DNA of 64,000 nucleotides from Anaerolineae bacterium (GTDB lineage: Bacteria; Chloroflexota; Anaerolineae; Aggregatilineales; Phototrophicaceae): positions 62,001 to 126,000 of the forward strand of contig JABWBO010000001.1 of NCBI GenBank assembly GCA_013360465.1. The letters are read 5' to 3'. Within the stretch, counting starts at the first letter, position 1. The number at the start of each line of letters is the position of its first letter. The notes beneath the pieces are model-generated. The model saw nothing but the letters and a program-made list of their open reading frames with translations, ran no database searches and was not told the origin of the DNA. This document shows, in pieces, positions 17,342 to 28,543 of this stretch. Both the position numbers and the translations under genes were made by a program.

Positions 17342-18054
17342 CTCTGCGATTCCAGGATTTGCGCGGTGATGAACAACATGACGGCGATGATCCCGGCGAA
17401 AAAGGCGACATCCTCGGCGCGCATCAAGCCCGACGCGAAGGAAGTTGAGAAGTGTCCCTGTAAAGACATCGTTCGGAAGATGATGGCGACATCAATGTTG
17501 CTGAACAGCTGCCCAGCCTGATCGGCAAGCCAGAGGAGCATCAGCGCGACCATGCCGAGAAACGCCGCCACGATCTGGTTCTCTGTCAGCGCGGAAAAGA
17601 CCATGCCGACGGTCAGTGTCGCGCCGCCATACAACCAGATGCCAATATAGGCGCTCAGCGCATGCCCCAGGTCCGGCGCGGTGATGCTCAACAGGATGAC
17701 CTGATAGACGCCGGTCAACAGGAGCAGCAGGGTGAAATAAGCCCACGCGCCGAGGAACTTGCCGAGAACGATGCTGAGTTCGCGCACCGGCGCGGTCAAA
17801 AGGAGTTCCATTGTCCCTTCGCGCTGTTCTTCAGCGAACATACGCATGGTCAGGAGTGGGGCGAAAAAGACCATCGCGAAAGAAAGGATGCCGGGGACGA
17901 GCGCCGGGTCTGCGGGTTTGGTGCTGAAGCTGATATTCAGGTCGCGATTGAAAAGGATGCCGGTCAGCAGAAGCACGGCTGCTCCGATCACGTAGGCGAA
18001 TGGCGTTGTCAGAAACTGCGCGATTTCCCGGCGAAAGACGATCCAGGAGGTCAT
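17329..18054 (-). CDS. ABC-2 type permease, GldF-like
   Basis: The 241-residue integral membrane protein has about six helices. It begins SWIVFRREIAQFLTTPFAYVIG, the usual start of GldF/ABC-2 permeases, and contains LLTMRMFAEEQREGTMELLLTAPVRELSIVLGKFLGAW, the coupling region conserved in this family. It overlaps the ATPase gene by four bases and the GldG-like gene by 13, so the proteins are stoichiometrically linked. It should form the membrane channel with the ATPase encoded upstream. The substrate is not evident from the sequence. Confidence 0.88.
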   Translation of the reverse strand: MTSWIVFRREIAQFLTTPFAYVIGAAVLLLTGILFNRDLNISFSTKPADPALVPGILSFAMVFFAPLLTMRMFAEEQREGTMELLLTAPVRELSIVLGKFLGAWAYFTLLLLLTGVYQVILLSITAPDLGHALSAYIGIWLYGGATLTVGMVFSALTENQIVAAFLGMVALMLLWLADQAGQLFSNIDVAIIFRTMSLQGHFSTSFASGLMRAEDVAFFAGIIAVMLFITAQILESQRWHG

Positions 18055-18791
18055 TTGTCTGCTCCTCGCTCAGCGCCAACGATGCTCAGGAAAACCTCCT
18101 CCAGCGTTGCGTCTGGGCGGAGCTTGCGCTTGAGGTCGGAAGGCTGGCCCTGCGCAACGATTCGTCCCTGATGGAGGATGATCACCCGGTCACATGTATG
18201 TTCGGCTTCGGAGAGGATATGTGTGCTGAACAGGACGGTCTTCGTCCTGCCTAGTTCCCGCACCGTATCGCGCACCTCGATGACCTGACGGGGGTCGATG
18301 CCGATGGTCGGCTCGTCGAGGATCAGTACTGGTGGATCATGCACCAGCGCCTGGGCGAATCCCAACCGCTGGCGCATCCCTTTCGAGAGGTTGCGGATGA
18401 GGGTATCGCGCCGCTCGCTCAGATTCACCTGGGCGATGACCGCATCGGCGCGCGCTCTGGCGTCCCGCTGCCCACGCAGCCGCGCCCAGAAGAATACATA
18501 TTCACGGACGGTCATATCCGGATAAACGGGCACACGTTCGGGAAGGTAGCCGACATTGCGCCGAGCGTTCAGCGAGTCGGCTGCGATATCATGACCGGCG
18601 ATCTTCGCGCCCCCTTCGCTGGGTGGCAGAAAGCCGGTAAGCATACGCATGGTGGTCGTTTTGCCTGCGCCGTTGGGACCCAGCAGACCGACGACTTCAC
18701 CCGGTTTTGCTAAAAACGAGACGTGATCAACCGCAATGCGGTCACCGAATCGCTTGGTCAAACGTGTCACTTCGATCATCGCTTTGGTCAT
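18051..18791 (-). CDS. ABC transporter ATP-binding protein, GldA-like
   Basis: The protein has 246 residues from ATG 18791. The upstream frame stays open to 18911, but it reads unlike the family, and IEVTRLTKRFGDRIAVDHVSF is the normal beginning of such ATPases. All nucleotide-binding motifs are present: Walker A GPNGAGKTTT, signature LSKGMRQRLGFAQAL, Walker B VLILDEPTIGIDP and the H-loop STHIL. It powers the GldF-like permease encoded directly downstream. It is the first gene of the four-gene exporter operon. Confidence 0.93.
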   Translation of the reverse strand: MTKAMIEVTRLTKRFGDRIAVDHVSFLAKPGEVVGLLGPNGAGKTTTMRMLTGFLPPSEGGAKIAGHDIAADSLNARRNVGYLPERVPVYPDMTVREYVFFWARLRGQRDARARADAVIAQVNLSERRDTLIRNLSKGMRQRLGFAQALVHDPPVLILDEPTIGIDPRQVIEVRDTVRELGRTKTVLFSTHILSEAEHTCDRVIILHQGRIVAQGQPSDLKRKLRPDATLEEVFLSIVGAERGADK

Positions 18792-19094
18792 GAAGCTGAA
18801 CCGTTGAACTGAATCATGGCTTTGAACGATCCTGTATAGAATCGAATGGTCCTCCCTGGGTAGGAAGCGGCTGCAACCCGGCAAGGAAAGGCTGATCACC
18901 CTGTTCCCCATCTTACGCCTGAAGGCGACTCAGACGAAAGCAAATGGTACAGAGTCGATGGCGATCCGGCTTGTTATGATTTTGTGCGACTTGCGACGGC
19001 AGTGAAGCTGTAAAATGATCGGACGATTGTTGACAGTCGGGCGGGGCACGGGTATCATCAACCTATCAGCATTCAGGACTTGATCATTCAGCCG
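18792..19094. other. intergenic region between ABC operon and arginine leader
   Basis: This divergent spacer of about 300 bases has no supported gene. The right end holds the arginine operon promoter (19030-19058). The left part must hold the promoter of the ABC operon, but I see no convincing -35/-10 pair on the minus strand. No RNA gene is recognised. Confidence 0.5.
19030..19058 (+). promoter_or_regulatory. promoter of the arginine operon
   Basis: TTGACA (19030-19035), 17 bases, then TATCAT (19053-19058). The mRNA should begin near 19065, about 30 bases before the leader-peptide ATG and about 210 bases before argC. Confidence 0.72.
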
Positions 19095-19178
19095 ATGCAG
19101 CCGTTACCTGTTTGTTCTTCGCGTCGTCGCAGCCGTCGCCCGCTGACCACTGAGGTCAAGCCGGGAGCTTTGGCGTAG
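19095..19178 (+). CDS. arginine-rich leader peptide (attenuator)
   Basis: This 27-codon frame (ATG 19095, TAG 19176) lies between the operon promoter and an intrinsic terminator. Residues 10-15 are Arg-Arg-Arg-Ser-Arg-Arg, written CGT CGT CGC AGC CGT CGC, so five of six codons ask for the end product of the operon. That is the hallmark of leader peptides in ribosome-mediated attenuation (trp, his, leu types). The stop codon is placed so that a ribosome reaching it covers segment 19151-19158, while one stalled at the Arg codons covers 19144-19148. An in-frame TTG at 19080, directly behind AGGA, is an alternative start; the ATG has only a distant Shine-Dalgarno match. Confidence 0.72.
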   Translation: MQPLPVCSSRRRSRRPLTTEVKPGALA

Positions 19179-19226
19179 CGCGGTTGCGACTGCCTGAACC
19201 TGAGCGAACCCCGACCCCTGACCTCA
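19144..19226 (+). promoter_or_regulatory. alternative pairing segments of arginine attenuator (1:2 and 2:3)
   Basis: Segment 1, TGACC (19144-19148), can pair with GGTCA (19154-19158). Segment 2, TGAGGTCA (19151-19158), is the exact reverse complement of segment 3, TGACCTCA (19219-19226), which is the 5' arm of the terminator stem. Pairing 2:3 would therefore prevent the terminator, and pairing 1:2 would allow it. Confidence 0.65.
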
Positions 19227-19252
19227 ACCAACGAGGCGGGGGTTTTTGTTTT
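19215..19252 (+). terminator. intrinsic terminator of the arginine leader
   Basis: CCCC and CCTC (19215-19218, 19222-19225) pair with GAGG and GGGG (19233-19236, 19238-19242) across a 7-base loop with a small internal bulge. TTTTTGTTTT (19243-19252) follows. It ends 21 bases before the argC start, so it can only serve to stop transcription before the operon. Confidence 0.68.
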
Positions 19253-19273
19253 CATACCTGGAAAGGAGAATGG

Positions 19274-20308
19274 GTGACACCGATGTCCGATCAAGACTCT
19301 CAGCAGGTGCGCGTAGGCGTCTACGGCGCGAGCGGCTATGCCGGGCAGGATGCGGTTGAACTGCTGGCAAAACACCCGCACGCCCGCGTCGTGTTTGCCA
19401 CATCTTCCACCTATGCCGGGCAGCCTGTGCCGTTCACCGATTTGCACTACATTCGCCCCGATGACGCGCCGCTGAACCCCGACACCGTCGATGTCGTTTT
19501 CCTGGCGCTTCCTCACGGCGTATCGGCAAGAACAGCGGCAAAAGCACTCGATGCCGGCATTCGCGTCATCGATCTGTCGGCAGATCTGCGTCTGGATACG
19601 CCGGAAAGCTACAAGCAGTGGTATGGGCATGATCATCCACACCCGACGCTGCTACAAAGCACGCCGTATGGACTTCCTGAATTTAACCGCGAACGGCTGC
19701 GCGAGGCACGGGTCATCGCTGCGCCGGGATGCTACCCGACGACGACGCTGCTCGGCATCTATCCGCTGCTTAAAGCCGACTGGATTCTGCATAGAGCGCC
19801 GATCATCGTCGATGCCAAGTCCGGCGTGAGTGGGGCAGGGCGTGACCCCAAACCACACCTACACTTCGTCGAAGTTTACGGCAACCTGTCACCCTATAGC
19901 GTGGGACGCTCGCATCGCCATGTGGGCGAAATCGAGCAGGAGATGAAGAAGATCAACGCCGACACCGGAACACTGATCTTCACGCCTCATCTGCTGCCGG
20001 TGGATCGCGGGTTGATGTCGAGCATCTATGTTCAACTCGCCGAGAACCACAGCAGTGGGGATGTTCAGGCGCTCTACGAGACGACCTACGCCGGCGAACC
20101 GCTGGTCAGGGTACTGCCGAATGGGGAACAGGCGTCGTTGAAGCACGTCGTCAAGACCAACGGCTGCGCCATCAGCGTCTCAGCGGCGGCAGAGAAACTG
20201 GCGCATGTCACCAGCGTCACCGACAATCTGCGTAAAGGCGCGTCTGGACAGGCGGTGCAGTGCTTCAATCTCATGTTCGGCTTTGAAGAGGCGGAAGGGC
20301 TGCTGTGA
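19274..20308 (+). CDS. argC: N-acetyl-gamma-glutamyl-phosphate reductase
   Basis: ArgC reduces N-acetylglutamyl phosphate to the semialdehyde with NADPH, the third step of arginine synthesis. The NADP-binding motif GVYGASGYAGQ is near the N-terminus, and the catalytic Cys153 lies in APGCYPTT. Further motifs are VDAKSGVSGAGR, HRHVGEIEQE and FTPHLLPVDRGL. The chosen start is GTG 19274, five bases after GGAG; ATG 19283 is possible, while the frame upstream runs into the terminator and is not coding. With 344 residues the length is normal. It is the first structural gene after the attenuator, and argB starts inside its stop codon. Confidence 0.95.
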   Translation: MTPMSDQDSQQVRVGVYGASGYAGQDAVELLAKHPHARVVFATSSTYAGQPVPFTDLHYIRPDDAPLNPDTVDVVFLALPHGVSARTAAKALDAGIRVIDLSADLRLDTPESYKQWYGHDHPHPTLLQSTPYGLPEFNRERLREARVIAAPGCYPTTTLLGIYPLLKADWILHRAPIIVDAKSGVSGAGRDPKPHLHFVEVYGNLSPYSVGRSHRHVGEIEQEMKKINADTGTLIFTPHLLPVDRGLMSSIYVQLAENHSSGDVQALYETTYAGEPLVRVLPNGEQASLKHVVKTNGCAISVSAAAEKLAHVTSVTDNLRKGASGQAVQCFNLMFGFEEAEGLL

Positions 20309-21057
20309 CTCTCGTCATCAAAATCAGCGGACATGAGCTGGACAGCCAGGAATACCTGAACGAATTCGCCGGCGTGGTCGCGAAACTGGCGGATCCGGTC
20401 GTCATCGTTCACGGCGGCGGCAAGGAGATCAGCCAGCTTCAGGAGCGCATGGGCATCACGCCGCGCTATGTTGACGGCGTGCGCGTGACCGACGCCGACT
20501 CGCTGGCGCTGGTGGAGATGGTGTTATGCGGTACGGTCAATAAGCGGTTGGTGCGTACGCTGGTGAACGCAGGCGTAGATGCGGTGGGGCTTTCTGGAGT
20601 CGATTTCGCCCTGGTACGGGCGGAAAAGATGGGACATGCTGCGGTGGATATGGGTTTTACCGGGGAAGTCTCTGCCGTGCGTCCAGAACCGCTGCAAGCG
20701 TTCCTGGGCGATGGGCTGACTCCGGTGATTGCGCCGATCTGTATCGGTGTTGAGAACAACTTCAACGTCAATGCAGATCACGTCGCCGGCGCGCTGGCGG
20801 TGGCGCTCGAAGCGGAGCGACTGGTTTTCCTGTCCAACGTCCCCGGCGTCCTGGTGAATGGACAGGTTGTGCCGTCGCTGACGGATGAGCAGTCGGAGGT
20901 GCTGATTGCCGATGAGACGATCTTCGGCGGCATGATTCCGAAGGTGCGCACGGCGACCGCGACGCTGCGGCGCGGCGTTCGGGCGGCGGTGATCACTCAT
21001 CTGGATGGACTGCGGAATGGCGGCGGAACCGTGATCACGGCGACACATCATCGTTGA
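20305..21057 (+). CDS. argB: acetylglutamate kinase
   Basis: The enzyme phosphorylates N-acetylglutamate (second step of arginine synthesis). The 250-residue amino-acid-kinase-fold protein has LVIKISG at the N-terminus, the glycine loop IVHGGGKEIS, the substrate region NVNADHVAGALA, and the C-terminal GGMIPKV with the Lys for phosphate transfer. It is rather short, like the LysZ/ArgB kinases that use LysW-bound substrates. No lysW gene is nearby, and ArgJ in the same operon points to the ordinary acetyl route. The GTG start overlaps the argC stop by four bases. Confidence 0.88.
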   Translation: MTLVIKISGHELDSQEYLNEFAGVVAKLADPVVIVHGGGKEISQLQERMGITPRYVDGVRVTDADSLALVEMVLCGTVNKRLVRTLVNAGVDAVGLSGVDFALVRAEKMGHAAVDMGFTGEVSAVRPEPLQAFLGDGLTPVIAPICIGVENNFNVNADHVAGALAVALEAERLVFLSNVPGVLVNGQVVPSLTDEQSEVLIADETIFGGMIPKVRTATATLRRGVRAAVITHLDGLRNGGGTVITATHHR

Positions 21058-21075
21058 TAGCAGCGAGATAGAGCG

Positions 21076-21708
21076 ATGAGCGACCAACAACCGGACCCCA
21101 TGCCGGATGGCGACCTTCACCCGGCGCTCGATGATCAGGTGGAGGCGCTCTATGCGTTGGTGCGCTCGCTCTTCCGTGAGAAGGTAGCGCACGATCTGCT
21201 CGACGCCTTCGAAGCAGCCTTTTCTGCGCTGCCCGATGAAGCAACGCGGGCAGAGGTGGTCGGCTATTGGCTCGACTTCTACCGCTTACAGCGTTACAAG
21301 CTGCTGCGCCGCCGCCGTCGTCCGAAGTTCCAGGAGCGCCTGAAGGCGTGTTCGGCGTGCGGCTATCCAACGTCGCATCGCCATCATCTGTGGGATGTCG
21401 CGACACATGGCGAAAACAGGGTGACGATCCAGTTATGCGCCAACTGTCATGAGCTGCATCATCTGATGTATAACGCACTGGTCAGGCAATCGGAGTATTC
21501 GCGCAAACTTGTGCTGCACGCCTTGTTTTCCGGGCGCATCAACCGTGATACCGGGGTGAGGATCCTGGGGTGGTGTCTGGCGACGATCCGCTACGAAGCC
21601 GGAAATGGCTGGATCGCACCGGGCAGCGACCGCCGCGAACAGGTGGAAGAACGTCTGCATTGGTCTGAGTTCCTGAAGATTCAGGATGCACAAAAAGGGG
21701 AAACGTAA
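21076..21708 (+). CDS. HNH-domain protein inside the arginine operon
   Basis: The 210-residue protein begins with a helical, acidic region (residues 1-75) and a basic patch RRRRRPKFQERL. An HNH-like zinc module at about residues 92-135 follows: CSACG, HRHHLWDV, an Asn in GENRVTIQL, and CANCHELHH. The order C-x2-C, His-His, Asn, C-x2-C-H-x3-H is that of HNH nucleases. The rest is helical. It lies 18 bases after argB and its stop abuts the argD start, so it is plainly cotranscribed with the arginine genes. No arginine enzyme has this fold. It may be a nuclease, an RNA-binding zinc protein or a regulator; the sequence alone does not decide. Confidence 0.75.
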   Translation: MSDQQPDPMPDGDLHPALDDQVEALYALVRSLFREKVAHDLLDAFEAAFSALPDEATRAEVVGYWLDFYRLQRYKLLRRRRRPKFQERLKACSACGYPTSHRHHLWDVATHGENRVTIQLCANCHELHHLMYNALVRQSEYSRKLVLHALFSGRINRDTGVRILGWCLATIRYEAGNGWIAPGSDRREQVEERLHWSEFLKIQDAQKGET

Positions 21709-22905
21709 GTGATTGCAGCTGTCAACACCAACTGGGTCATCGAGCGGGATGCCGCTCATGTCGTTCAGACGTACAAGCGCCCGCCATTTGTGCTGACTCG
21801 CGGTGAGGGTGTGACGCTATACGACGCTGAAGGGAACGCTTACATCGACTGGGTGGCGGGAATCGCCGTCAACGCGCTTGGATATGGCGATCCAGGACTG
21901 ACGGCGGCTGTTCAGCGCGCCGCCGAAGGGCTTCTGCACACCAGTAATCTCTATTATACCGAACAGCAGGCGGCGCTGGCGACAGCGCTCACCGAACGTT
22001 CGTTTGCCGACCGGGTCTTCTTCACCAACAGCGGGACGGAAGCGAATGAGGGCGCGATCAAGTTCGCCCGCCGCGCCGCTTACGACTCCGGCGAGCCGGG
22101 CAAGCACGAACTCGTCTGTTTCAGCGATGCCTTTCACGGACGCACGATGGGGTCGCTCTCCATGACTCCGAAGGAGAAGTATCAGAAACCGTTCATGCCG
22201 CTGCTCTCCGGGGTCAAGATCGCCACTTTCAACGATATCGCCAGCGCCCGCGAGGCGATCACTGACAAGACGGCGGCGATCTTCATTGAGCCGGTGCAGG
22301 GCGAGGGCGGCATCAACGCGGCGACGCCTGAGTTTCTCGGCACGCTGCGCGAAGCGTGCGATCAGCACGGCGCCGTGCTGGTCTACGACGAGGTGCAGTG
22401 CGGCGTAGGGCGCACCGGCAGGCTGTGGGCGCACGAACATGCCGGCGTCGCGCCGGACATCATGACGCTGGCGAAGCCGCTGGCGGGCGGGCTGCCGATC
22501 GGCGCGATTCTGGCGACCGAGAAGATCGCCAGCCACCTCCATGCCGGCGATCACGGTTCGACCTTCGCCGGTGGACCGTTCATCACCAGTGTGGCGCGCT
22601 ACGTGCTGGAACGCATCGCCGAGCCGACGTTCCTGGGGCACGTTCAGTCGGTGGGGGCGTATCTCAGAGAGCGGCTGGAAGAGATCAACAGCCCGCACAT
22701 CAAGGAGATTCGCGGACGCGGGCTGATGGTCGGCATGGAACTAGATGTCGAAGCCGCGCCGATCATCGAAGCCGGGTACAAGCATGGGCTGCTGATGGTC
22801 AACGCCGGGACCAACATCATTCGCTTCGTGCCGCCGCTGGTGGTCCAGAACAGCCACGTCGACTCGCTGGTCGAACGCCTGACCGGCATCCTGGCAGCGA
22901 TGTGA
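21709..22905 (+). CDS. argD: acetylornithine aminotransferase
   Basis: This class-III PLP transaminase of 398 residues converts N-acetylglutamate semialdehyde to N-acetylornithine with glutamate. Motifs seen are FTNSGTEANEGAIKFAR (PLP phosphate), FHGRTMGSLSMT, EPVQGEGGI, VYDEVQCGVGRTG with the Asp that holds the pyridine N, and LAKPLAGGLPIGA with Lys256 as the Schiff-base residue. It starts with GTG preceded by AGGGGA. It is adjacent to the HNH gene and 48 bases before argJ. Acetylornithine and succinylornithine transaminases look alike; the operon settles the role. Confidence 0.95.
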   Translation: MIAAVNTNWVIERDAAHVVQTYKRPPFVLTRGEGVTLYDAEGNAYIDWVAGIAVNALGYGDPGLTAAVQRAAEGLLHTSNLYYTEQQAALATALTERSFADRVFFTNSGTEANEGAIKFARRAAYDSGEPGKHELVCFSDAFHGRTMGSLSMTPKEKYQKPFMPLLSGVKIATFNDIASAREAITDKTAAIFIEPVQGEGGINAATPEFLGTLREACDQHGAVLVYDEVQCGVGRTGRLWAHEHAGVAPDIMTLAKPLAGGLPIGAILATEKIASHLHAGDHGSTFAGGPFITSVARYVLERIAEPTFLGHVQSVGAYLRERLEEINSPHIKEIRGRGLMVGMELDVEAAPIIEAGYKHGLLMVNAGTNIIRFVPPLVVQNSHVDSLVERLTGILAAM

Positions 22906-22953
22906 TCAGCCAGCCGCTTTTATCGGGAAACGTCAATTTTTCAGGGATGACTG

Positions 22954-24177
22954 ATGACTGATTTGACAACCATGACCGTCGCCGGTTTCAAAACCGCCGG
23001 CGTCGCCTGCGGTCTGAAAATCAGCGGGGCGCTCGATTTCGCGCTGATCGCCAGCGACCGCGCCTGCACTGCTGCCGGGGTATTCACCACTAATCTAATC
23101 AAGGCGGCTCCCGTACTCTATGACGCCGAAGTGCTGGCGCGGGGACGATCGGAAATCCGCGCTGTCGCCGTCAACACGCGCTGTGCCAACGCCTGTACTG
23201 GCGAACAAGGGCTGGCGAACGCCCGCGAGATGGCGCGGCTCACGGCGGAGAAGCTTGGCGTGCCGTCGGACTCGGTGCTGGTGATGTCCACCGGCGTGAT
23301 CGGCACACAGCTCTCGATGGACAAGATCGCGCAGGGGGTGACGCTTGCCTTTGACGATCTGGATGCTGACGATGACGCCTGGAATCGCGCGGCGAACGGG
23401 ATCATGACGACCGACACCCGACCCAAGATCGCCTCGGAGACCGTCGTGCGCGAAGACGGCAGTGCCTACCGTATCACCGGCATCGCCAAAGGGGCGGGGA
23501 TGATCGCGCCGAATATGGCGACGATGCTCAGCGTCATCGTCACCGATGCCGTCCTGAGTGCTGAGCAGGTGGACCGGTTCCTGCATCAGGCGGTGGAAGT
23601 GAGCTTCAACCGCATCGTTGTGGACGGCGATACCAGCACGAACGACACGGTGCTGCTGCTGGCGAACGGCGCGAGCGGAGTCGCGATCGCGGATGATGCC
23701 GACGAAGCGGCGTTTCTGACGGCGCTGACCGAGGTGAGCGTGCAGCTGGCTCAGGCAGTCGTGCGTGACGGAGAAGGCGCGACCAAATTCATCGCCATCG
23801 AAGTCACCGGCGCGCAAAACGACTCGACGGCGAAGCAGATCGCCAACACGATTGCCACATCGCCGCTGGTCAAGACGGCATTCTATGGCGGCGACGCGAA
23901 TTGGGGGCGGATCATGGCGGCGGCAGGGCGCGCCGGCGTACCGCTCGATGCTGCAGCTGCGACGCTTCGCTTCGCGCGGGGCGCTGATGATGAAGGCTTG
24001 TTGCTCTATGCCAATACGATGCCAACCCAGTACGACGAAGCCCTGGCGACCGAAATCGTCAATGCGGACTCGGTGATCGTTCGGCTGAACGTGGGTATGG
24101 GCAGCGGCGCGGCGACGGTGTGGACGTGTGACCTCAGCCACGATTACGTCTCGATCAACGGACATTACCGCAGCTAG
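22954..24177 (+). CDS. argJ: bifunctional ornithine acetyltransferase / N-acetylglutamate synthase
   Basis: ArgJ moves the acetyl group from acetylornithine to glutamate, closing the cyclic arginine route, and may also make acetylglutamate from acetyl-CoA. The 407-residue precursor contains KGAGMIAPNMATMLSVI; self-cleavage before Thr190 would give the alpha and beta chains, with that Thr as nucleophile. Other motifs are AGVFTTNLIKAAPV near the N-terminus, STGVIGTQL for the oxyanion hole, and FYGGDANWGRIMAA. The start ATG is six bases after AGGGA. Its presence argues that argB/argC here act on acetylated, not LysW-bound, substrates. Confidence 0.95.
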   Translation: MTDLTTMTVAGFKTAGVACGLKISGALDFALIASDRACTAAGVFTTNLIKAAPVLYDAEVLARGRSEIRAVAVNTRCANACTGEQGLANAREMARLTAEKLGVPSDSVLVMSTGVIGTQLSMDKIAQGVTLAFDDLDADDDAWNRAANGIMTTDTRPKIASETVVREDGSAYRITGIAKGAGMIAPNMATMLSVIVTDAVLSAEQVDRFLHQAVEVSFNRIVVDGDTSTNDTVLLLANGASGVAIADDADEAAFLTALTEVSVQLAQAVVRDGEGATKFIAIEVTGAQNDSTAKQIANTIATSPLVKTAFYGGDANWGRIMAAAGRAGVPLDAAAATLRFARGADDEGLLLYANTMPTQYDEALATEIVNADSVIVRLNVGMGSGAATVWTCDLSHDYVSINGHYRS

Positions 24178-24187
24178 GAGTTGATAC

Positions 24188-25342
24188 GTGACGCTGCATA
24201 CAGGCAAGAAGCCCGGATTGATTGCACTGGAAGATGGTCGGACGTTTGCCGGCGAGGGATTTGGCGCGCAAGGCGTGCAGACCGGCGAACTGGTCTTCAA
24301 TACGTCGATGACGGGTTATCAGGAGATCCTGACAGATCCCTCCTATCACCGCCAGATTGTGACGATGACCATCCCGCACGTTGGCAATACCGGAATCAAC
24401 CCGGAAGATGTGGAGTCGGAACATGTGTGGGTCGCCGGTTACGTAGTACGCGCCCTTTCGCCGGTGGTGAGCAGCTGGCGGGCGCAGCGCGACCTCGACG
24501 GTTATCTACGCGAACAGGGGGTGATCGGTATCAGCGAGGTCGCCACGCGAGCGCTGGTGCGGCATATCCGCGAGCGAGGTGTGATGCGCGCGGCGATTGC
24601 GCATGGCGAAGCGGCGATGGATGAGTCTGCGTTGGTCGATCTGGCGCGCAGTTCGCCGGACATGAACGGCTGGAATCTCGTCGATGACGTGACCTGCGCT
24701 GAGTCCTACCACTGGTCGGAGCGCAGCAATCCGGATTATTACGGCGCGGGGGTGCGCACTGAGCAGGCTCCGTTGATCGTCGCCTACGATACTGGCATCA
24801 AACACAACATCCTGCGCATGATGACTGACCGGGGGCTGCGCGTGACTGTCGTTCCAGCGCGGACGACCTTTCAGGAAGTCCTGGGAATGCACCCGGCGGG
24901 AGTCTTTCTGAGCAATGGTCCGGGCGATCCGGCCGCTGTGACCCATATGATCGAGAATGTTCGAGGCTTATTAGGCAAGACGCCGATCTTCGGGATCTGC
25001 CTGGGACATCAAATCCTGGCGCTGGCGCTTGGCGGCAGGACGGCGAAGATGCGCTTCGGGCATCGTGGGGGAAACCAACCAGTCAAGAATCTCCTCACCG
25101 GCATCGTCGAGATCAGCGCACACAATCACGGTTTTGCCGTCACGTCGGACAGCGATTTGCGCGGCGCAGAAGTGACTCACATCAACCTGAATGACAACAC
25201 CATCGAAGGGCTTCGCCACGTCGATCTGGGCGCGTTCAGCGTCCAGTACCATCCGGAAGCGTCGCCAGGTCCGCACGATTCACTTTACCTGTTCGATGAG
25301 TTCGTCCGTCGCGTCCAGGACGGCAGCAAAGCAGCAGTCTAA
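24188..25342 (+). CDS. carA: carbamoyl-phosphate synthase small subunit
   Basis: The glutaminase subunit supplies ammonia to CarB for carbamoyl phosphate, needed for arginine and pyrimidines. The 384-residue protein has the N-terminal domain with LIALEDGRTFAGEGFG, FNTSMTGYQEILTDPSY and IGISEVATRALVRHIR. The class-I amidotransferase domain has Cys271 in FGICLGHQILALALGG, and the His-x-Glu pair in VQYHPEASPGPHD. It starts with GTG ten bases after argJ, and carB follows at three bases. The placement directly behind argJ suggests control by arginine supply. Confidence 0.96.
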   Translation: MTLHTGKKPGLIALEDGRTFAGEGFGAQGVQTGELVFNTSMTGYQEILTDPSYHRQIVTMTIPHVGNTGINPEDVESEHVWVAGYVVRALSPVVSSWRAQRDLDGYLREQGVIGISEVATRALVRHIRERGVMRAAIAHGEAAMDESALVDLARSSPDMNGWNLVDDVTCAESYHWSERSNPDYYGAGVRTEQAPLIVAYDTGIKHNILRMMTDRGLRVTVVPARTTFQEVLGMHPAGVFLSNGPGDPAAVTHMIENVRGLLGKTPIFGICLGHQILALALGGRTAKMRFGHRGGNQPVKNLLTGIVEISAHNHGFAVTSDSDLRGAEVTHINLNDNTIEGLRHVDLGAFSVQYHPEASPGPHDSLYLFDEFVRRVQDGSKAAV

Positions 25343-25345
25343 ACG

Positions 25346-28300
25346 ATGCCAAAACGTACTGACATCAAGACCATCCTGATCATCGGCTCCGGTCCCATCG
25401 TCATTGGGCAGGGCTGCGAATTCGACTACAGCGGCGTGCAGGCGTGCAAGGTCCTGCGGGCACAGGGCTACCGCGTGGTACTGATCAACAGCAATCCTGC
25501 GACGATCATGACCGACCCGGAATTCGCCGACGCCACTTACGTTGAGCCGCTCTCACCGGAAATCGTTGAGCGAGTTATCGAGGCGGAAAAGCCGGATGTC
25601 CTGCTTCCGACCGTTGGCGGGCAGACCGCCCTCAATCTGGCGATGACTCTGGCAGAAAGCGGCGTCCTTGCCAGGCATAACGTCGAGCTGATCGGCGCGA
25701 AGCTGGACAGCATCCAACTTGCCGAAGATCGGCAGTTATTCAAAGATGCCATGATGGAAATCGGCTTGCAGTGCCCGGAAAGTGAGGTCGTCAGGACCAT
25801 AGAAGAGGGACTGCACGCCGCCGGACGAATCGGCTACCCGGTGCTGGTCCGCCCCTCTTTCACCCTCGGCGGATCGGGCGGCGGCATCGCCTACAACCCC
25901 GGAGAACTGGCGACCATCGCCGAGCGCGGACTGAAGCTCAGCCCGGTGCAGGAGGTGCTGATCGAGCGCAGCGTCCTGGGCTGGAAGGAATACGAACTCG
26001 AAGTCATGCGCGATGCCAGCGGCAACTTCGTAGTTGTCTGCACCATCGAGAACCTGGACCCGATGGGGGTACACACCGGAGACAGCATCACCGTCGCGCC
26101 GGCGCAAACTCTCACCGACAAGGAATTGCAGCGGCTGCGCAACGCCGCGCGTAGGGTACTCGACCGGATCGGTCTGGCGACCGGCGGTGCAAATGTTCAG
26201 TTCGCCGTTAACCCGGCGGATGGGCAGGTCTACGTCATCGAGATGAACCCGCGTGTCTCGCGTTCGTCGGCGCTGGCGAGCAAGGCGACTGGCTTTCCGA
26301 TTGCCAAGATCGCCGCGCTGCTGGCGGTTGGGTATCGGCTTGACGAGATCCCTAACGACATCACCCGTGTGACGCCGGCATCCTTCGAACCCTCGCTCGA
26401 CTACGTGGTTGTGAAGATCCCCCGCTGGGATTTTGACAAGTTCCCCGGCGCTGATCGTACGCTCGGTCCGCAGATGAAAGCCATCGGCGAAGTGATGGCG
26501 ATTGGGCGGACGTTTCCAGAGGCGCTGCAAAAGGCGATCCGCTCGCTGGACATCGGGATGATCGGTTTCGGCGCGAAGGCGATGCAGGTGAAACCGGAGT
26601 CGCTGAAGCTGCCGACGGCACAGCGCTTGTTCCAAGTTGCCTCAGCGTTGAGCGACGGCGCACCCCTGGAACACATCGTCGAGAAGACCGGGTTCGATGC
26701 CTGGTTCGTCCGCCAGTTGGGCGACATCATCACGACGCGGCGGTCGCTCGTCCCTGAGGGGCTGCATCTGAGCGACCTTACCGCCGAGTCTTTGTGGACT
26801 CTGAAACGCGCCGGCTTTGGCGATGCGCACCTGGCGCGTATGCTCGGTGAGCGCGAGCAGGCGGTCCGCGTTTACCGCAAAGCGTTGGGCGTTGAACCCA
26901 GCTTCTATCGCGTTGATACCTGCGCGGCGGAATTCGAGGCGTTCACGCCCTACCTCTATTCGACCTATGAAGCGGAAGACGAAAGCGCACCTGATGAACG
27001 TCGGAAGGTCGTCATCCTCGGCGGCGGTCCAAACCGCATCGGGCAGGGGATCGAATTCGACTACTGCTGCGTTCATGCCTGTTTCGCGCTGCGCGATCTT
27101 GGCTTCGAGACGATCATGATTAACTGCAATCCAGAGACGGTCAGCACCGACTACGATACCGCCGACCGCCTCTATTTCGAGCCGATCACCACCGAGGATG
27201 TGCTGAATATCATCGACCGCGAGAAGCCAGACGGTGTGCTGGTGCAGTTCGGCGGTCAGACCCCGCTCAACATTGCGCGCGCGCTGGCGGAGGGCGGCGC
27301 AACGATCTGGGGTACTTCGGTGGAGACGATTGATCTGGCAGAGGACCGCCGGCGCTTCCACACGCTGATGCAGCAGCTCGACATCCCCCAGCCTTCTGGC
27401 GCCATCGCCGTGACGGCGGACGAGGCGCTGGCGGCTGCCGAATCCATCGGCTATCCTGTGTTGGTTCGCCCCAGCTACGTCCTCGGCGGACGTGACATGG
27501 CAATCGTCTTTGACCGTGCAATGCTCGCTGAGTGGCTGGAAAAACACGCTGAATCGCTGGGGCATCCCGTGCTGATCGATCAGTTCCTGGATGATGCTTT
27601 CGAGATCGATGTTGATGCGCTCTGCGATGGCGAACGGGTCGTCATCGGAGGAATCATGCAGCACATCGAAGAAGCCGGCGTCCACAGCGGCGATTCGGCG
27701 TGCGTGCTGCCGCCATACAAGGTCAGCTACTATCATGTGGAGATCATTCGCGAGTACACCGAACGAATCGGCAAGGCGCTGGGCGTTCGCGGGCTTTTCA
27801 ATATCCAGTTCGCCATCAAGGACGAAGTGGTCTATGTGCTGGAGGTCAACCCGCGCGCCAGCCGCACCGTCCCCTTCGTGAGCAAGGCGACGGGGATTCC
27901 CCTGGCGCGACACGCCGCCGAGATCGCCGCAGGCAAGAGCCTGGTCGAGATCGGTTTTCTGGAAGAGCCGCGCGTCGATGGCTTCTTCGTCAAGGAAGCC
28001 GTACTACCGTTCCAGAAGTTCCCTGGCGTCGATGCCGGTCTCGGTCCTGAGATGCGCTCTACCGGAGAAGTGATGGGGCATGCCTCCAGTTTTGGGCACG
28101 CCTTTGCCAAGGCGGAACTGGCGGCAAATACGGCGCTTCCACAGCAGGGGACGGTCTTCATCAGCGTCAACAACAACGACAAGGGCGCAGTCGTCAAAAT
28201 TGCCCGCGACCTGCATCAGCTCGGTTTCGCGTTGATCGCGACTCAGGGAACAGCCGCTTTCCTGCGCACGCTGGAAATCCCCGCGACGACTATACAGAAG

Positions 28301-28543
28301 GTGAGCGAAGGTTCGCCGAATGCTGTGGACGTGATTCGCGCCGGAGAGATCGATCTGATCATCAACACGCCGCGCGGCGCACAGGCGCATCACGATGGCG
28401 CCCAGATTCGCGGCGCAGCGGCGCTCTACAACGTGCCGATCATCACAACACTGAGCGCGGCAATGGCGGCGGTGCAGGGGATCAAGGCGCTGCGTACCAA
28501 GCCGCTGCGCGTCCGCAGCCTCCAGGTACACCATCACCTTTGA
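25346..28543 (+). CDS. carB: carbamoyl-phosphate synthase large subunit
   Basis: The 1065-residue protein has the usual duplicated ATP-grasp halves. The first half has [17 protein letters not shown] near residue 15, [14 protein letters not shown] and [18 protein letters not shown]. The second has [17 protein letters not shown] near residue 557, [14 protein letters not shown] and [18 protein letters not shown]. The C-terminal allosteric domain (about 930-1065) carries [22 protein letters not shown] and LIINTPRG. The length matches the family. It is the last gene of the arginine operon, followed seven bases later by a strong terminator. Confidence 0.97.

Follow-up and report, generated by a model that had tools for sequence, protein, structure and literature searches.

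What controls the arginine genes that begin with argC in the window, by which we mean the whole 64-kb stretch of DNA (64,000 nucleotides) analysed here? The usual account of bacterial arginine synthesis is one of control by a repressor, and classical attenuators are known for several amino acids. No ArgR (PF01316) match was found at E<=1e-3 in the window genome (G000, 97% complete), and an earlier note had read the DNA before argC as an attenuator that responds to arginine. Our analysis supports this reading. From the conservation of the leader in relatives, the covariation of the helix between its segments 2 and 3 (2:3), the mean profile of a ribosome-footprint model and the arginine genes downstream, it is very probable that the argC operon is preceded by a ribosome-mediated transcription attenuator specific for charged arginine tRNA.

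The leader before argC in the window

The features of the leader all lie on the forward strand. A sigma-70-type promoter (19030-19058), with TTGACA at 19030-19035, a 17-nt spacer and TATCAT at 19053-19058, was read directly and matched 11 of the 12 consensus positions in the promoter scan. Among 48 leaders of the order, a promoter that starts with TTG and has a 17-nt spacer was picked in 33, by a score that itself favoured 17 nt and was run without a shuffle control. The ATG of the leader peptide follows the -10 element by 36 nt, at 19095, and its frame, MQPLPVCSSRRRSRRPLTTEVKPGALA, has 27 codons and ends with TAG 19176-19178 (19095-19178); this Arg-rich mini-frame is kept in relatives. There is no Shine-Dalgarno sequence at normal spacing before this start, where an AGGA ends 16 nt upstream of the ATG, though the codon-level conservation described below suggests that the frame is translated.

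The putative regulatory codons CGT CGT CGC AGC CGT CGC (19122-19139, read directly) contain five arginines in six codons. Segment 1, TGACC (19144-19148), pairs with GGTCA at 19154-19158, within segment 2 (19151-19165), which consists of TGAGGTCA at 19151-19158 and GGG at 19163-19165. Segment 3, CCCCTGACCTCA (19215-19226), is both the partner of segment 2 and the 5' arm of a terminator. Segment 4, GAGGCGGGGG at 19233-19242, and the T-run at 19243-19252 complete this intrinsic terminator (19233-19252), as seen from direct reading and folding. The stem at 19215-19242 has 10 pairs, one bulge and an energy of -16.8 kcal/mol, and the T-run ends 21 nt before the likely argC start, GTG 19274. The hairpin was absent from the output of a simple terminator scan, presumably because of the bulge.

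When the sequence was read directly, the promoter, the 27-codon Arg frame, the 8-nt complementarity, the TGACC/GGTCA pair and the terminator described in the earlier note were all found in place. The complementarity itself had been given as eight nucleotides. This match is exact, with TGACCTCA at 19219-19226 being the complement of TGAGGTCA, but the antiterminator is longer: GGG 19163-19165 and CCC 19216-19218 adjoin the 8-bp core, and together they make 11 pairs with -17.0 kcal/mol.

The first gene under the proposed control is argC (19274-20308, forward strand, start GTG 19274 or ATG 19283), which has Pfam semialdehyde dehydrogenase domains and a Shine-Dalgarno sequence, AAGGAG (19263-19268), before GTG 19274. 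It is followed on the same strand by argB, an HNH-like ORF, argD, argJ, carA and carB (20305-28543), for which Pfam gives amino-acid kinase (ArgB), class-III aminotransferase (ArgD), ArgJ, CarA and CarB. The HNH-like ORF between argB and argD (21076-21708, 210 aa) has no Pfam match at E<=1e-5, and a CxxC and an H-rich motif are visible in it by eye. Upstream of the leader lies a divergent ABC-transporter gene on the minus strand (18051-18911). The possibility that the terminator at 19215-19252 is the end of the upstream gene was rejected, since that gene is on the opposite strand.

Two more argC-like paralogues (37% identity) are present in the window genome, at C197:17829-18848 and C126:493-1500. 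No Arg leader was seen by eye in the DNA upstream of either. The DNA before the C126 paralogue reads by eye as the end of a gene which, from its motif, we take to be of the LysX type.

Conservation, codons and pairing in relatives

The gene argC was sought in 101 genomes, 94 of which had a match, and for 80 we read the DNA that precedes the main paralogue; the remaining genomes of the 101 gave weak, partial or paralogue argC matches, or none. Two groups of loci were left out of the order count. In L081 and L082 argC is cut by the contig end, and other contigs of these genomes (L186, L200) carry leaders followed by an argC-like start. L084-L087 belong to a second argC paralogue with about 36% identity, before which no leader was seen by eye.

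At 68 of the 80 order loci the upstream DNA contains a mini-frame in which Arg fills at least 4 of 6 codons; the corresponding rates are 7.7% for 1600 dinucleotide shuffles and 8.7% for 484 flanking pieces. With at least 5 Arg in 6 codons the counts were 39 of 80, 0.5% and 1.2%, respectively, while at least 3 Arg in 6 codons occurred at 76 of 80 loci, yet in 43% of shuffles too. A hairpin with a T-run in the upstream 350 nt is not diagnostic alone (75 of 80 loci, but 152 of 240 shuffles). We therefore give the result for a combined criterion, namely an Arg frame, a hairpin with a T-run and a 2:3 pairing of <=-9 kcal/mol. The earlier note had proposed that relatives be checked for a conserved Arg-rich mini-frame and for compensatory changes, and as to the former, 73 of the 80 argC loci of the order pass the combined criterion, compared with 23 of 240 shuffles.

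The seven failing loci are L026, L027, L035, L046, L051, L054 and L055. At L026 (G059) the Arg leader is present, but it is separated from argC by a luciferase-like monooxygenase gene (seen by eye at L187, G059:C12:146000-149000), so that the attenuator would control that gene too. At L051, L054 and L055, all of genus g19, the screen detected no terminator and no Arg leader upstream of argC, though GC-rich repeats are visible by eye; here the attenuator seems to have been lost or replaced. A covariance model built from the 48 order leaders, which match it by construction, found matches at E<=1e-3 in 109 of 154 order genomes and 49 of 61 genera, the weakest of which include chance ones. The matches L194 and L211 were judged to be chance.

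The codons of these leaders are strongly biased. Of the 250 Arg codons in the 48 leaders, 248 are CGY (CGT or CGC), compared with about 437 of 665 (about 66%) in the argC bodies, and CGT makes up 57% of the leader codons versus 13% in the bodies. The residues that break the Arg run are not constant (S, N, F, L, P, E, I and others occur), and the nearest ATG lies 2-22 codons before the first Arg in the 43 leaders with an ATG, whereas the distance from the last Arg to segment 2 is steady, being 11-17 nt in 26 of 28 leaders of family f1. The N-terminal parts of the leader peptides are unlike one another and of variable length, and the residues after the Arg run track the pairing segments rather than a motif. 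The CGY bias, the variable residues and N-terminal length, and the steady spacing together point to a leader that is read codon by codon by one isoacceptor, not as a peptide motif. Near-exclusive use of CGY suggests that the leader reports the charging of that isoacceptor.

The same data bear on nascent-peptide sensing, in which the leader peptide in the exit tunnel would bind free arginine or ornithine and arrest the ribosome. Fungal AAP, TnaC and SpeFL are examples of nascent-peptide arrest. Arg runs with the pattern RR(R)xRR(P) do recur across families, and Salmonella has a leader, orf34-speF, in which there are two Arg codons, according to the part of PMC6386406 available to us. However, the dissimilar N-termini, the 2-22 codon range, the varying interruptions and the dependence of the post-Arg residues on the pairing segments speak against a sensing peptide. 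The sign would also be wrong, since arrest by abundant arginine would free segment 2 and switch biosynthesis on. We regard nascent-peptide sensing as very unlikely, and retain the reading of the leader as a sensor of tRNA charging.

Compensatory changes were evaluated in two alignments. Alignment A1 contains 48 leaders, with 22 of 70 script-cut stretches left out as near duplicates, divergent (including genus g17) or mis-cut. Alignment A2 contains 38 leaders of families f1 and f4, and because the terminators of three f4 rows (L049, L052, L053) are misaligned in it, A1 was taken as the main evidence for covariation. In A1, the 2:3 helix has 27 double-change cells against 11.9+-2.6 in shuffles and a covariation score of 0.192 against 0.120, and neither value was reached in any of 500 shuffles; slid versions of the 2:3 structure score lower (0.044-0.091). 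The compensatory changes proposed in the earlier note are thus present in this helix, although related sequences may beat shuffles even without structure. Within the 38 leaders of A2 the signal for 2:3 is modest, with 7 double-change cells against 4.8+-1.8 (75 of 500 shuffles; for the score, 5 of 500). For 1:2 and 3:4 together, A2 gives 14 double-change cells against 7.0+-2.1 (10 of 500). The 1:2 helix is paired in 84.2% of cells in the 38 leaders, with double changes in two of its five pairs.

Exchanging partners between leaders gives a similar comparison in terms of energy. A leader's own 2:3 pairing has a mean of -18.3 kcal/mol, compared with -13.4 (sd 3.6) for 1430 swaps of segment 3 between families, while swaps within a family change little (f1: own -19.0 vs -18.1; f3: own -14.5 vs -14.9). 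On average, 17% of the partners from other families equal the own segment 3 in pairing, while 12 of the 48 leaders pair better with their own segment 3 than with any partner from another family. The segments themselves differ by family: GAGGTC/GACCTC in f1, GGTTCG/CGAACC in f8, GGGTCCGG/CCGGACCC in f3 and GGTCTGG/CCAGACC in f7. An antiterminator 2:3 that excludes the terminator is backed by the covariation in A1 and by the swaps between families, and more weakly by families f1 and f4 alone.

It may also be supposed that the terminator is controlled by a bound protein or metabolite, as in a riboswitch, and that the Arg frame is incidental. A short GGTC/GACC core kept across families would fit this. 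On the other hand, conservation follows the codons (with alternation of CGT and CGC) and the pairing, not a fixed core, and the segment sequence shifts between families while the pairing is retained. At gathering score, Rfam reports one tRNA only in the whole window, and for the leader nothing appears even at E<=1, including no T-box. A riboswitch-like terminator is therefore hardly credible to us, and an attenuator read by the ribosome is preferred.

Ribosome position and structural choice

We modelled the effect of the ribosome by blocking, codon by codon along the 48 leaders, the stretch that its footprint would cover (P-site -12 to +15), and computing pairing probabilities. All values in this section are model values. 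Before segment 4 exists, the mean P(2:3) reaches 0.78-0.79 when the last Arg codons occupy the A-site, compared with 0.35-0.62 at -84 to -12 nt and 0.00 at +15 to +30 nt, and it climbs back to 0.23-0.40 at +36 to +48 nt. In this mean profile, the spacing is predicted to let a ribosome on the Arg codons free segment 2. The exceptions are 11 of the 48 leaders, in which P(2:3) at the stop either exceeds the value at the Arg stall or lies less than 0.1 from it (L004, L009, L010, L012, L015, L022, L023, L024, L029, L031 and L083). Between the Arg stall and the state without a ribosome, the difference is less than 0.1 in 20 of 48 leaders. For the window leader P(2:3) is 0.45 on the Arg codons, 0.05 at the stop and 0.00 without a ribosome. 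At full length, equilibrium favours the terminator throughout, with a mean probability of 0.71-0.97 and with 1.00 in all three states of the window leader, so that the switch would have to be kinetic, the choice being made during transcription.

The earlier note had proposed that a ribosome stalled at the Arg codons favours the antiterminator, and that a ribosome at TAG 19176 covers segment 2. The mean model profile agrees with the former. The latter is doubtful for the window leader: with 25 nt between segment 2 and the stop codon, a ribosome at the stop would hardly mask that segment. It is likewise unlikely in family f1, where segment 2 starts 22-45 nt before the stop. We ascribe the low P(2:3) at the stop in the window leader to reforming of 1:2, and the off state is more likely to be this hairpin, formed anew once the ribosome has passed. 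Masking of segment 2 by a ribosome at the stop is plausible in families f2-f4: of the 11 leaders modelled there, 10 have the stop -5 to 13 nt from segment 2, and L065 has it at 25 nt.

The proposed mechanism would then run as follows. When Arg-tRNA(Arg) is scarce, the ribosome would stall on the CGY codons and mask segment 1; segment 2 would pair with segment 3 before segment 4 is made, no terminator would form, and argC-argB-HNH-argD-argJ-carAB would be transcribed. With plentiful Arg-tRNA, the ribosome would run through and mask segment 2 transiently, after which the 1:2 hairpin would reform, 3:4 would form and transcription would stop before argC. Translation of the leader, stalling, the kinetic choice of structure and the response to arginine are what we infer from the arrangement.

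Other leaders, wider distribution and known systems

A second Arg leader in the window genome lies before argG on contig C220 (L244). Its peptide is MFILSPCLRIRRRRTQDEFGAFGVRSG, its terminator stem has 9 bp, and its segments 2 and 3 pair with -17.1 kcal/mol. Extra matches of the covariance model in the order precede argG-argH or argG (L182-L185, L190-L193, L199). The gene argG was matched in 52 of 61 genomes, and among the best 30 argG loci an Arg leader was seen by eye at 12 (L222, L229, L230, L232, L236, L237, L241, L243, L244, L245, L249 and L250), four of which are the same loci as among the extra matches; at L226 the leader is doubtful by eye. In family f42 of the class, 17 loci were examined for their model matches: 14 of them precede argC, L205 precedes an argD-like gene and L216 alaS, while L203 is truncated where its contig ends. 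Genes downstream of leaders outside the window were recognised from translated starts, not by Pfam. The leader ATG is only 6-8 nt after the -10 element in all nine argG leaders of the extra matches, and the picked start is 6-10 nt after it in 11 of the 14 f42 argC leaders (within L202-L221). An ATG so near the -10 element suggests leaderless translation of the leader peptide.

A poly-Ala leader with a terminator stands before alaS in the Anaerolineae family f42 (L339-L342, L347-L349, L351, L352, L356, L360 and L366). At least 4 Ala in 6 codons were found in 13 of 28 alaS upstream regions, and 12 of these 13 match a profile of the 14 f42 argC leaders with E of 7e-7 to 1e-15, while the best of 140 shuffled regions has E 0.81. 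These matches support homology between the f42 alaS poly-Ala leader and the argC Arg leader. When six argC and six alaS leaders were aligned, a one-nucleotide gap appeared between the codon run and segment 1, so the same GC-rich run would be read in another register (CGC for Arg, GCC for Ala). It is conceivable, though we put it at somewhat less than even, that the attenuators changed their amino-acid specificity by such a register shift, a duplicated Arg switch becoming an Ala switch or the reverse. The homologous Ala leader would let a change of amino acid in an attenuator be seen in nature, and none of the paper titles listed describes an alaS poly-Ala leader.

These neighbours also help to judge whether the leader might be a general sensor of translation stress, in which the terminator would be opened whenever a ribosome on the leader is slow or drug-bound, irrespective of arginine. 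In the model, any stall over segment 1 would do, and RLR-type leader motifs report antibiotics elsewhere, as described in the accessible part of PMC8632094. However, Arg leaders with an identified next gene precede argC, argG and argD (in one case a luciferase-like gene and then argC), and they carry tandem CGY codons, while the homologous alaS leader has Ala codons. We hold such a general sensor to be highly improbable and continue with a switch specific for arginine.

Outside the order, the loci of the class and phylum were the best-scoring matches together with others chosen among the better-scoring ones so as to cover many families, and are no random sample. Of the class loci beyond the order, 33 of 46 argC loci pass the combined criterion (shuffles: 11 of 138). 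For loci outside the class the count is 12 of 36 (shuffles: 9 of 108); three f83 genomes and one f109 genome look credible by eye, and the rest look like chance. The covariance model matches 54 of 396 class genomes, order members included.

ArgR was counted in the same way. Among the 101 genomes of the order search, 10 have a PF01316 match and 5 of these are over the cut-off, all five in one f8 genus, partial and marginal (27.4-31.3 bits), and in genomes that carry leaders. Among 60 chosen class and phylum genomes, the cut-off is passed by none of the 26 class genomes and by 7 of the other 34, with strong matches in all seven. Two of the seven (G537, G625) pass the automated leader screen, and by eye no CGY run was seen beside a terminator just before argC in either. 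The four credible leader carriers outside the class have no PF01316 match over the cut-off. As 23 of the 34 non-class genomes have neither ArgR nor a credible leader, there is no strict exchange of the leader for ArgR. A large branch of Chloroflexota nevertheless seems to use the Arg leader instead of the usual repressor. If so, a core pathway would have received a different evolutionary solution in a class where ArgR was not found, and the leader would explain arginine regulation in mostly uncultured bacteria and add a new RNA family.

Among the matches listed from the openly licensed literature (including PMC4833913), the parts available describe no ribosome-mediated attenuator of bacterial arginine biosynthesis, and the survey of Lopatovskaya (2010) could contain some. 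According to the part available of PMC2965389, which concerns premature terminators, leader-peptide systems were until 2010 unknown outside Proteobacteria and Actinobacteria except for ermC, and PMC8632094, as far as its accessible text goes, covers 26 genomes. The repressor ArgR/AhrC (PF01316) has the same pathway as its target, but it is a DNA-binding protein and is without a match in the window genome. The fungal arginine attenuator peptide (arg-2/CPA1) is eukaryotic and translational, and free arginine is sensed through the nascent peptide; like the argC leader, it is an arginine-related leader peptide before an arginine biosynthesis gene.

T-boxes bind tRNA directly. Arginine T-boxes resemble the argC leader in responding at the RNA level to the charging of arginine tRNA, but the argC leader has an Arg-rich frame and no Rfam T-box match. 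Arginine T-boxes are mentioned in PMC1262725, where, in the part available, no conserved RNA element is reported before arginine operons of Actinobacteria. In orf34-speF of Salmonella, ribosome pausing on consecutive Arg codons reports arginine and alters mRNA folding (PMC6386406, in part). Unlike the argC leader, that system serves polyamine synthesis through Rho, access to the ribosome-binding site and RNase G, and the same partial source describes no intrinsic-terminator switch before an arginine biosynthesis operon.

The attenuators of the trp, his, leu, thr, phe and ilv operons share with the argC leader a leader ORF with tandem codons of the end product, the 1:2, 2:3 and 3:4 helices and the intrinsic terminator. 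Those ribosome-mediated attenuators belong to Proteobacteria. Compared with the trp/his type, the argC leader has arginine codons, no Shine-Dalgarno sequence at its start and a Chloroflexota host, and Arg leaders precede argC, argG and, in one case, argD. The mechanism is therefore a known one, while the amino acid, the pathway and the lineage are apparently new.
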